Assembly (NCBI GenBank): GCA_018883425.1
Contig: VFQY01000008.1
Location: 1-50,784 of the forward strand
DNA from: Candidatus Omnitrophota bacterium
GTDB lineage: Bacteria > Omnitrophota > Omnitrophia > Omnitrophales > Aquincolibacteriaceae
Length of the DNA stretch: 50,784 bases
Direction of reading: 5' to 3'
Below, one piece after another: positions 18,762 through 23,679 of the stretch. The notes under the pieces were generated by a model. That model did no database searches. It was given only the letters and a program-made list of their open reading frames with translations, and was not told where the DNA came from. Every line of letters starts with the position of its first letter. The first letter of the stretch is position 1. The position numbers and the translations under genes were made by a program.

Positions 18762-19988
18762 TCAAGAATAGGATCCATTTATCATCACATACTTGGTCGT
18801 CAGGTCGGATGTGATGAATTCCGCCTTGCCTCGTCCTTTGCCGACGGTGACGTCAATCGTGTATTCGCGCTTCTGAAGGACGCGGCGGGCCTTGGGGAGA
18901 TTCAGGGCCCGTATTTTACCGTGATGGACCACCACGACGTCTCCAAAAGAGATATTCAAGTGATCGGGATTGAGGTTGAGGCCGCTGGCGCCGATGGCGG
19001 CCGCGATGCGTCCCCAGTTGGGATCGGAACCCGCCAGCATGGTCTTGAAGAGCATGGAGTTGGCGATCTGACGTGCGGCTCTCTCCGCTTCGCTGGGACT
19101 TTTGGCGCCGCTGAGGCGCAAAGTACAGACATGGGTCACCCCCTCACCGTCGCGGATCATCTCGTAAGCCATGATGCGGCAAACCTCTTCGAGAGCTTCC
19201 CGGAACAGGTGATAGTGACTGTCTACTTTCTGGAGAAGCGGGTTAGCGGCTTCTCCGTTGGCAAGGACAAACGCCATATCGTTGGTGCTCATGTCGTTGT
19301 CGATGGCAATCTGATTGAAGGTATCATCCACCGCATGCCTCAGGGCCCTTTTGAGCAGAGGCTTGGTGATGGCGCAATCGGTCGTGATGAAGGCCAGCAT
19401 GGTCGCCATGTTGGGATGTACCATTCCGGCTCCCTTGCTGATGGCGCCGATCGTCACCTTCTTGCCCTGGAGCATAAAAGAAAGGGCGACTTGTTTGAGC
19501 GTCTTGTCCGTCGTCACAATCCCCTTGGCCGCTGAGCGTCCCCCGCTGTCCTCTTCAGAAAGACGTTTAACCAGGCTGGGAAGCGAGCGCTTCAGCCGCT
19601 GGGTCGGAAACTCAATACCGATGAGGCCTGTCTGGGCCACCAGGATAGAGTCCCTTTCGATATTGAGAATCGAGCCGAGTTCCGCGACACATTCTTCAAT
19701 GGCCGTCTTGCCCTGAGGACCATTGATGCAGTTGGCGTTGCCGCTTGAGGCCAGGATGGCATGATGTTTCTGCGCTTCCACCGATTTCATCGAGTGAAGG
19801 ACGCACCAGGCCTTGACCTTGTTGGTCGTGAACGTGCCTGCCGCCGTGCAGGGTTTTTTTGAGTAGATCAGGGAAGCATCATACTTGCGCTTGTTGCGCT
19901 TGATGCCGCAGTAAAGACCGCTGGCAGAAAATCCCAGGGGAGTCGTCACGGTGCCTTTTTTCCTGCGTTCCCAGAAAGGTTTTACCAT
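18762..19988 (-). CDS. argJ: Glutamate N-acetyltransferase / amino-acid acetyltransferase
   Basis: GAISKGAGMVHPNMATMLAFITTD autocleavage region, DNDMSTNDMA, DPNWGRIAAAIG. Start trimmed to MVKPFWERR. Confidence 0.94.
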   Translation of the reverse strand: MVKPFWERRKKGTVTTPLGFSASGLYCGIKRNKRKYDASLIYSKKPCTAAGTFTTNKVKAWCVLHSMKSVEAQKHHAILASSGNANCINGPQGKTAIEECVAELGSILNIERDSILVAQTGLIGIEFPTQRLKRSLPSLVKRLSEEDSGGRSAAKGIVTTDKTLKQVALSFMLQGKKVTIGAISKGAGMVHPNMATMLAFITTDCAITKPLLKRALRHAVDDTFNQIAIDNDMSTNDMAFVLANGEAANPLLQKVDSHYHLFREALEEVCRIMAYEMIRDGEGVTHVCTLRLSGAKSPSEAERAARQIANSMLFKTMLAGSDPNWGRIAAAIGASGLNLNPDHLNISFGDVVVVHHGKIRALNLPKARRVLQKREYTIDVTVGKGRGKAEFITSDLTTKYVMINGSYS

Positions 19989-21010
19989 AGTCCCAATCCT
20001 TCTTGCTCGGGAAAACCGAGGCAAACGTTCATGTTCTGGACCGCCTGGCCGGAGGCCCCTTTTAAGAGATTGTCAATCGCCGTAACGACGATCAGTTGAT
20101 CCGTGCGCGCATCGAAATGAAAACCGATATCGCAGTAGTTCGTCTGCTGCACATCTTTCAGAGCCGGAAACTGCTTGGCTCCCTTGAAACGGACGAAAGG
20201 CTCTTTATCATAAGCTTTGCGGAACGATTGTTCAATGCGTTCCTGGGTTACCCCTTTTTTCCTTCTAAGATAGATCGTCGAAAGAATCCCGCGCTTGAGC
20301 GGTAAAAGATGCGGGGTGAAAGAAACTGCGGTTTTCCTGCCCGAGGCCCAGGAGAGCGTCTGCTCGATTTCAGGCGTATGCTGATGCTGTCCCACTTTGT
20401 AGGCATAGAAATTCTCATCGAGCTCAGCAAAGTGACTTGAGAGACTCAGCTTCTTGCCGGCTCCGCTCACGCCGGACTTTGAATCAATAATAATCCCCTC
20501 CTTTTCGACTAACCCGTCACGGAGAAGCGGCACAATCCCGAGAGCCGCGCCCGTCGGATAGCATCCGGGATTGGCGATGAGTTTGGCGCCTCGAATCGAG
20601 TCTCGAAAAAATTCGGTCAGTCCGTAAACAGCTTCCTGAATTCTCGCGGTGTTGCGGTGTTTCACACCGTACCAGAACTCATAGGCCGAGGCATCTTTTA
20701 AACGGAAGTCGGCGGACAAATCGATCACGATTTTGCCGGCACCGCGGAGTTTTTCAACGGTCTCCATAGCCTCCGTATGGGGTAGACACAGAAAAAAAAG
20801 ATCTGACGATTTTTTTAATTCGACAAAAGAATGCGGCCTGATCACCAGATCAATATCTTTCGGGAGACTTGGGATCAGCGTTTGAACGGGTAGGGCTTCT
20901 TTTTGGCGGGTCGTCAGCGCACTGATGCGCACATAGGAGTGTTTCAGCAGTATCTTGATCAGTTCCATTCCGGTGTAGCCGGTGGCCCCGATCACGGCGC
21001 AATTGAGCAT
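19982..21010 (-). CDS. argC: N-acetyl-gamma-glutamyl-phosphate reductase
   Basis: AVIGATGYTGMELIKILLKH, ANPGCYPTGAALGIVPLLRDGL; overlaps argJ start by 7 nt (ATGGTAA). Confidence 0.95.
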   Translation of the reverse strand: MLNCAVIGATGYTGMELIKILLKHSYVRISALTTRQKEALPVQTLIPSLPKDIDLVIRPHSFVELKKSSDLFFLCLPHTEAMETVEKLRGAGKIVIDLSADFRLKDASAYEFWYGVKHRNTARIQEAVYGLTEFFRDSIRGAKLIANPGCYPTGAALGIVPLLRDGLVEKEGIIIDSKSGVSGAGKKLSLSSHFAELDENFYAYKVGQHQHTPEIEQTLSWASGRKTAVSFTPHLLPLKRGILSTIYLRRKKGVTQERIEQSFRKAYDKEPFVRFKGAKQFPALKDVQQTNYCDIGFHFDARTDQLIVVTAIDNLLKGASGQAVQNMNVCLGFPEQEGLGLW

Positions 21011-21040
21011 TTAGTAGTCATTCTCCAGATAAGCGCTCAT
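21011..21040 (-). CDS. Candidate 9-aa leader ORF MSAYLENDY directly abutting the argC ATG
   Basis: ATG at 21040 preceded by AGAAGGA with about 7-nt spacing; TAA immediately followed by argC ATG. Confidence 0.4.
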   Translation of the reverse strand: MSAYLENDY

Positions 21041-21068
21041 CAAAACGTCCTTCTAATTTAGAGCGCGG

Positions 21069-21097
21069 ATTATAGGAAAACCCCCGGGGGTTGTCAA
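21069..21097 (-). promoter_or_regulatory. Perfect consensus sigma70-type promoter of the arg operon
   Basis: Minus strand TTGACA (21092-21097), 17-bp spacer ACCCCCGGGGGTTTTCC, TATAAT (21069-21074); 14-bp palindrome AACCCCCGGGGGTT at 21079-21092. Confidence 0.85.
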
Positions 21098-21144
21098 TTT
21101 TCTCCGCGCCGGCAGAGCCAGGGTTCAGCCGAGGCAATCCTGGC

Positions 21145-23679
21145 CTAGTTTGAAGCTGAAGCTTTGAAAAAATCTTCTGATAGAAAATTATCGAGCGCCC
21201 GGTAGCGTTTGCTTGCCAGAAGCTGCTTAAAAATCTGGGGTATTTGCGCCGGATCCAACTTGACATCAGGCTTTGAAAACTCCCCGGAGACAAGAAGCGC
21301 TACGGGACCGATCATGCCCTCTTCTTTGAGAGACTCCGACAATGCCGTCGGATCCAGCGCCATTTGTCTGGGATCCAGGTACACCTGAAGCCGGCCGTTG
21401 ACGGCGCCGTCGAAGGTCAATGAGCCCCCGCCGTCGGCCTGAAAGCCCTCTCCTAAAAGCATCATCTTATCGGCAGTGATCCGTCTGCCGGAAATTCTGT
21501 ATTCCGCCTGCAGATCGTTGAAAAGAGTCGAATCTCCGCTGGGCGCTTTAAAGACCTCCGAAAAATCCGGGACCGCCGTCAGGGCACCCATGAGACTCAG
21601 GGTTCTCAGATCGCCGTTCGTGATCAGAAAAAGCCCTTCGCCTTCAAGCCTGTCGAGCCAAGGCTCCGTGCCTCCGGCAGGGATGCGCAGATGAGATTCC
21701 AGAAAAAGGTTGCCCTCCACAGGTCCCTCCTTGCGGCCCCCGCGCTTGCCGTAGAGCGCCAGACTCAGCCGGTCCGCCTTGATATCCCAACGGCCCCCTT
21801 GGTCTTCACCGAAAGAAACTCCCTCGCCTTGGGCATTCACACTGCCCTGATAGGCGTCAAAATTGAGAACAGGCACCTGCCAGGCTCCGCTCTCACGGGT
21901 CCACTCCAAGGTCATTTTTTTCCAGTTCTCGCCGGAAGGGAACAGATACGCCAAAGAGGCTCGCCCCTCATCCCAGGCAGCTCGCAGAGACTCGGCCAGC
22001 CAGGGCCGGGCAAGATCGTCCAGCGTTTCAGCAAGGCGTGAGACATCCACCTGATCGGCCTTCAGCGAAAGCTGGGTGACGGGATTGACCAGGAGATTGT
22101 AAGCCCGAAAACTGCCCGTGACACTGTCTTCGCCCGACTTGAACGACGTCCCACGGACTTCAAGGCCCAGAGGGCTGAGGTCCAGCGACGTCGTAATCTC
22201 GGTGAGCTCCCGGCCTCGAGGGCCGGCGACGCGGCCTTTTTCGAGCGTGATGTTGAACATCGGTTTCGTTTCATAAAGCTTCTGGAGGTTCCCCTTAAAA
22301 TTCGCAAGCGCTTTCATCTGTCCATCGAGTTTATAACCTTCGAAGACGGGGATGAACTTTTCCCAGTCCTTGATCTGAAACTTATTGGTGATGACATTGA
22401 GCTGTCCCGCCCCGCTCATCAGATCAAGATCGGTCAAAGATCCCTTCATCGTCATATCCTTGAAGCGGATCGAAAAATCTCCGTTAAGAATTTTTCCATG
22501 CTGAAACTCGTAATCAAAAACAACGTCAAAAGGCAGGTCCTTGGGCTTGGAAAAATAACGGGCATAGGTCAGAAGGGCCTGCGTTAAATCAAGCTTGGCA
22601 TTGACGCTTAAAAGATCCCGGCTGCCGGAGATGGACATCTCCAGGCGGCTGAGTCCCGAGAATCCGATGTTGTAGGGGATTGCATCTTTGAGCGCAGAGA
22701 AGTATTGGGGAATACTCTCCAAAACAATTTCGGAGGCTGTTACCCGGACATCCTGAAGGCCCTCTTCGGCACCCAGGAGATTTCCGCTGACCTCAACCCG
22801 GCCAATCGGGGTCGTCAGCGTGGCCGACTGGACGTTCATCGTGTTGGTCACGGGATTCCAATGAATCTGATACCGGAACCCGAGATCCACAGCGGGGGGC
22901 AGATTCTCAACCGGGTTCTGCCGGAACCGGTAGGAGAATCCGCGGGCGTTGCCTTCAGCATGGGCCTTCACGACATCCCCGCCCGGCTCTTTACGGAACG
23001 TCCACTGACCGCCGAAAGTTCCCTGGATAATTTCCGAGCGGAGGTAGCGGTCCAAGCTCTTTTCCAAAAGTTTGATGGGAATATCCTGAAGATTGACGGC
23101 GGCATCCAGCGAGGTTCCCGTCCACTCCAGCTTCTCGAGAGACTTGACCCGCAGAACAGCCCGGGCTGAAAGCACTCCTGGAATTCCGTTGATGGAACCC
23201 GCAAAAAAAGCCTTGATAGGCTTCTCGGCTTTTAACGGACCCGTGCGGAAAGCGGCATCATGAACTCTCACCGTTTCCAAGACGGAACCGTCCTTGTCCG
23301 GGATAGGAATACCGCAAGCCACGCGGCTTAAATGGATGCCCGCGATTTCAAGTTTTCCGATGAGAAAAGGGATTCTTGCCAGACGAATCCTGAGTTCGGC
23401 AGCTTCGAAAACCCATGGCCGCGGGCCTTCAATGCGGATTCTCACGTCTTTGAAGCGGGCTGTCAGAAAGGGGAAATAGGAGAACTGCGCCTGACCGGAT
23501 TCGATCACAGCACCCGTCATTTTGCGGATTTCCTGCGTGATAAGCTGATCTGCAGGAGAAGACCGCAAAAGGATGGGCGGTGCAGCGAAAGCCGCAACAA
23601 GACCTAGGACCGACGCAATCAGGAATAATTTCAGGATATTTCTCATGCCCGGGGAAGAACCTTTATGGTTAGCAGACAT
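21145..23679 (-). CDS. AsmA/YhdP-like (DUF3971-type) envelope protein
   Basis: 844 aa; single N-terminal TM segment (NILKLFLIASVLGLVAAFAAP), repeated beta-rich segments, C-terminal LTFDGAVNGRLQVYLDPRQM as in AsmA-like proteins. Confidence 0.7.
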   Translation of the reverse strand: MSANHKGSSPGMRNILKLFLIASVLGLVAAFAAPPILLRSSPADQLITQEIRKMTGAVIESGQAQFSYFPFLTARFKDVRIRIEGPRPWVFEAAELRIRLARIPFLIGKLEIAGIHLSRVACGIPIPDKDGSVLETVRVHDAAFRTGPLKAEKPIKAFFAGSINGIPGVLSARAVLRVKSLEKLEWTGTSLDAAVNLQDIPIKLLEKSLDRYLRSEIIQGTFGGQWTFRKEPGGDVVKAHAEGNARGFSYRFRQNPVENLPPAVDLGFRYQIHWNPVTNTMNVQSATLTTPIGRVEVSGNLLGAEEGLQDVRVTASEIVLESIPQYFSALKDAIPYNIGFSGLSRLEMSISGSRDLLSVNAKLDLTQALLTYARYFSKPKDLPFDVVFDYEFQHGKILNGDFSIRFKDMTMKGSLTDLDLMSGAGQLNVITNKFQIKDWEKFIPVFEGYKLDGQMKALANFKGNLQKLYETKPMFNITLEKGRVAGPRGRELTEITTSLDLSPLGLEVRGTSFKSGEDSVTGSFRAYNLLVNPVTQLSLKADQVDVSRLAETLDDLARPWLAESLRAAWDEGRASLAYLFPSGENWKKMTLEWTRESGAWQVPVLNFDAYQGSVNAQGEGVSFGEDQGGRWDIKADRLSLALYGKRGGRKEGPVEGNLFLESHLRIPAGGTEPWLDRLEGEGLFLITNGDLRTLSLMGALTAVPDFSEVFKAPSGDSTLFNDLQAEYRISGRRITADKMMLLGEGFQADGGGSLTFDGAVNGRLQVYLDPRQMALDPTALSESLKEEGMIGPVALLVSGEFSKPDVKLDPAQIPQIFKQLLASKRYRALDNFLSEDFFKASASN

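Follow-up and report, generated by a model that had tools for sequence, protein, structure and literature searches.

A full-consensus sigma-70-type promoter conserved upstream of argC in Omnitrophota, with a spacer palindrome found in no relative checked

The arginine operon of the window, by which we mean the whole analysed stretch of 50,784 nucleotides from a Candidatus Omnitrophota bacterium, is preceded by a promoter that is real, strong and under selection, and the palindrome in its spacer occurs in none of the related genomes checked. We consider it probable that the operon is transcribed mainly from this promoter, which is of the sigma-70 type, that the promoter hexamers were conserved while a sequence element known from the argC promoters of relatives and the divergent rnc gene were lost, and that the palindrome arose in a spacer which was free to vary.

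The minus strand reads TTGACA-ACCCCCGGGGGTTTTCC-TATAAT from position 21097 to 21069, and direct reading of the sequence and a promoter scan (score 12/12, spacing of 17 bp) both bore out the original prediction of two full-consensus hexamers upstream of the arg operon (Table 1). The end of the -10 hexamer lies 58 bp from the start codon of argC at 21010. The same strand then carries the run argC, argJ, argB, argD, argF, argG, argH and lysA; every one of these genes scores above the curated NCBIfam cut-off of a matching model. Transcription would be expected to start near 21062 and to continue through argCJBDFGH-lysA. With both hexamers exact and the spacing optimal, within the 16 to 18 bp of housekeeping promoters, the site resembles the consensus promoter of sigma-70 (RpoD/SigA); what sets it apart is that full consensus is held at argC across the order, although the window genome contains only nine perfect sites.

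Table 1. Features of the arg promoter region in the window (positions count from the first letter of the window)
Feature	Position	Strand	Basis or remark
-35 hexamer TTGACA	21092..21097	-	exact match to consensus
-10 hexamer TATAAT	21069..21074	-	exact match; 17 bp from -35
Perfect 14-bp palindrome AACCCCCGGGGGTT	21079..21092		inside spacer, one base shared with -35; single copy in genome
Extended imperfect 20-bp palindrome GACAACCCCCGGGGGTTTTC	21076..21095		9 of 10 pairs; sequence reading, fold
Outer inverted repeat, arm GCGCGGA (+ strand)	21063..21069		fold (z -2.2); 7-bp run
Outer inverted repeat, other arm TCCGCGC (+ strand)	21103..21109		fold and shuffle comparison
argC, first gene of argC-J-B-D-F-G-H-lysA	19982..21010	-	NCBIfam TIGR01850
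9-codon upstream ORF (MSAYLENDY)	21011..21040	-	stop abuts argC ATG
AsmA-like gene, directly upstream	21145..23679	-	Pfam AsmA weak, below curated cut-off

These nine matches to TTGACA-N16-18-TATAAT were found in a draft genome of 2,175,265 bases (156 contigs, 95% complete), against none for a reversed control pattern, and the 25 relatives searched behaved in the same way. Perfect promoters are therefore enriched over chance and real, but not unique. Their retention at this gene was followed in argC upstream regions taken from 50 genomes of the phylum. A perfect TTGACA-N16-19-TATAAT was present in 32 of them, including 31 of the 41 genomes from the order of the window, which supports a strong argC promoter maintained by selection. 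In the window genome and its near relatives G001, G005, G006 and G013, the hexamers and a TTTCC immediately 5' of the -10 stayed constant, and the spacers varied freely. These data do not demand that a full-consensus promoter be strongly repressed, because relatives retain the strong promoter whether or not they carry an operator-like element.

The perfect 14-bp palindrome in the spacer and its one-base overlap with the -35 hexamer were confirmed by reading the sequence. As the window holds six perfect palindromes with a length of 14 bp or more, where 3.3 are expected, the palindrome as such is ordinary. Its occurrence within the spacer has a shuffle p of 0.0005, and none of the 135 other perfect promoters of the window genome and 25 relatives contains a spacer palindrome of at least 10 bp. 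The perfect promoters of these genomes were also examined for a general excess of palindromes, and none emerged. In addition, a 7-bp inverted repeat (GCGCGGA/TCCGCGC), spotted post hoc, lies approximately concentric with the palindrome and was equalled by 0.3–0.5% of shuffles or random window positions. Counting against the explanation we prefer, the improbability of such a palindrome in a random spacer and the nearly concentric outer repeat hint at a lineage-specific operator.

The corresponding alternative is that the palindrome serves a local repressor other than ArgR, which would bind between -35 and -10, block RNA polymerase and have taken the place of the relatives' element. Besides the combination of perfect and extended dyads, unmatched in the 135 other promoters, and the outer repeat, it is favoured by the absence of ArgR from the genome and by the argC spacers without the relatives' element, in which inverted repeats are somewhat enriched (p ~0.001 with plain shuffles, loops allowed). 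However, this excess weakened to p values of 0.02–0.12 when the purine/pyrimidine pattern was held, with loops again allowed, no regulator gene adjoins argC within the window, and AACCCCCGGGGGTT occurs once in the window genome with no copy at one mismatch and no visible regulon. The 13 sites with two mismatches fall mostly within ORFs, and one of them is an intrinsic terminator. The palindrome is also absent from every relative checked, including the nearest, sister genome G005 (71% ArgC identity), which belongs to a different genus and whose argC promoter reads TTGACA-AGGCGGGAGGCCTTTCC-TATAAT; the spacers of G001, G006 and G013 differ again. On this evidence, we regard the local-repressor explanation as rather unlikely.

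The motif searches that the original prediction had proposed, genome-wide and upstream of argC, thus speak against its conserved repressor operator, and the lack of conservation it had named as refuting is what we found, with the nearest genome compared being one of another genus. The palindrome shares with known repressor operators in promoter spacers the dyad symmetry between -35 and -10, but it differs from them in having no known cognate regulator, no second site and no conservation in orthologous promoters; a regulator with a single site would also fit the lack of further copies at co-regulated genes. We infer that no conserved arginine regulator uses it as an operator. It is peculiar to the lineage of the window among the genomes compared and, being unusual for a spacer, may represent a lineage-specific operator; it gains interest only if some protein is shown to bind it. 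A different arrangement was seen in the argC promoter of G001 (locus L005), where a perfect odd palindrome of 17 bp, GTCCATTGACAATGGAC, has its centre on the -35 and the spacer holds a second palindrome of 10 bp, AAAGGCCTTT, distinct from the first.

A dyad between -35 and -10 would also suit an activator of the MerR type, which twists the spacer palindrome so that the hexamers become aligned. The spacers of MerR-type promoters are lengthened to 19–20 bp, whereas that of the window is already optimal at 17 bp, and this role is hardly credible here. It is likewise improbable that the hairpin serves the AsmA-like gene upstream as an intrinsic terminator and overlaps the arg promoter by chance. 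That gene runs in the same direction, with its end 47 bp short of the -35, the GC-rich stem is followed by TTTTCC, and other Omnitrophota families do have a terminator directly 5' of argC; however, the stem energy of -6.4 kcal/mol is no better than that of shuffles (z +0.44), the tail contains four T only, and a pattern scan lists the site on the other strand only.

The regulator of the operon would have to be sought outside the ArgR family. Both ArgR/AhrC domains, PF01316 and PF02863, are absent from the window genome, while control genomes were positive, and among 58 relatives of the phylum no match exceeded the cut-off, with one sub-threshold match only. No AT-rich palindrome of 18 bp was seen near the promoter when the sequence was read by eye. 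Because no ArgR/AhrC is encoded, any regulator must be different from it; to this extent the suggestion of a different regulator stands, but not the assignment of the palindrome as its site. An operator overlapping the argC promoter would block the polymerase just as in the control by ArgR/AhrC at ARG boxes, with the differences that no ArgR is encoded and that the element of the relatives has another sequence and a single site in each genome. Hardly any Omnitrophota have been cultured, and a limited literature search found nothing on the regulation of arginine synthesis in this phylum.

A better lead to a new arginine regulator than the palindrome is the element present in the relatives. Of 47 genomes from the order, 21 (loci L160–L180) have this element of 25 bp, TAACYTMTKMAWTTGACAAWRGATA, over the -35 of argC, usually between argC and a divergent rnc gene. 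The degenerate pattern TAACNTNTNNANTTGACAAWRGATA occurs once in each of these 21 genomes and always 5' of argC, as judged by comparing argC coordinates. Forms overlapping the -35 are CGTAACTTCTTAAATTGACAAAGGATAGAG in many argC promoters of the order and CMTAACCTATTCATTTGACAAAGGATAAG in family f8. With up to two mismatches, 16 genomes had one match each to the core of family f1; 15 of the matches lay 5' of argC, and the remaining one, a two-mismatch site in G041, lay elsewhere. A scan of 84,980 GTDB species genomes with a similar pattern placed all matches in Omnitrophota 5' of argC on the same strand, and those outside the phylum were not upstream of argC. A role as the rnc promoter was considered and rejected: several genomes have a separate TTGAC...TATTTT-like sequence for rnc, on the other strand and further to the left, and in G012 the element occurs with no rnc nearby. 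The element is a candidate operator of a non-ArgR regulator, and because it is specific to argC in an order lacking ArgR, it could serve as bait in the search for a new arginine regulator.

The element is absent from the window genome and from the near relatives G001, G003, G005, G006 and G013. On the ArgC tree it is clustered, with about four changes, a pattern that an old origin followed by several losses may explain. The order has kept the full-consensus promoter, often together with TAACYTMTKMAWTTGACAAWRGATA, which would position a regulator on the -35. Under the preferred explanation, the lineage of the window, which has the hexamers and TTTCC, would have lost the element, loss appearing more plausible than independent gains in the relatives, and the palindrome would have arisen in its freely varying spacer. 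A bolder proposal is that Omnitrophota without ArgR control arginine synthesis by a regulator which binds the 25-bp element over the -35 of the full-consensus argC promoter, and that the lineage of the window swapped the lost element for an operator in the form of the spacer palindrome; this we think unlikely.

The surroundings of the promoter have changed as well. Most relatives carry rnc, coding for RNase III, in divergent orientation between the AsmA-like gene and argC, namely 16 of the 17 genomes with the full element, all three with a partial element and five of the ten without it. The gene is missing at 21098–21144 of the window, and searches with PF14622 and with the RNase III of G005 as a query found none elsewhere in the 95% complete genome. 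Because the assembly is a draft and the protein query, in contrast to the family search, had no positive control, the absence of rnc is likely rather than proven. With rnc missing at this position, the AsmA-like gene now abuts the promoter.

On the other side of the promoter, the 9-codon ORF in front of argC is preceded by a Shine-Dalgarno sequence, AGAAGGA, at 21048–21054. In G005 (locus L003), a leader ORF with a Shine-Dalgarno sequence overlaps the argC start; its sequence, MSEGAWIWGLGRRKC, includes two Arg codons in a row. Because the stop codon of the one ORF abuts the argC ATG and the other overlaps the start, the leader sequences suggest translational coupling to argC in this pair of genomes. 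Within the window, Rfam models matched nothing but a tRNA, and 20 argC upstream regions gave no credible match. Terminator-like hairpins with T-runs were observed 5' of argC in other families (L023, L025, L030 and L069 in f8, L061 in f2, L059 and L068 in f6), downstream of the promoter wherever one was found. Their sequences suggest attenuation of the arg operon in some members of f2, f6 and f8, but not in the window. TTGACA-like sites 5' of argC in the more distant families f11, f12 and f14 had the look of an inverted repeat with covariation (CCTATCTTG...CAAGATAGG and similar), and were dismissed as a terminator of rpsI, because T-runs follow them and the apparent 3' end of rpsI, read by eye, lies just before.
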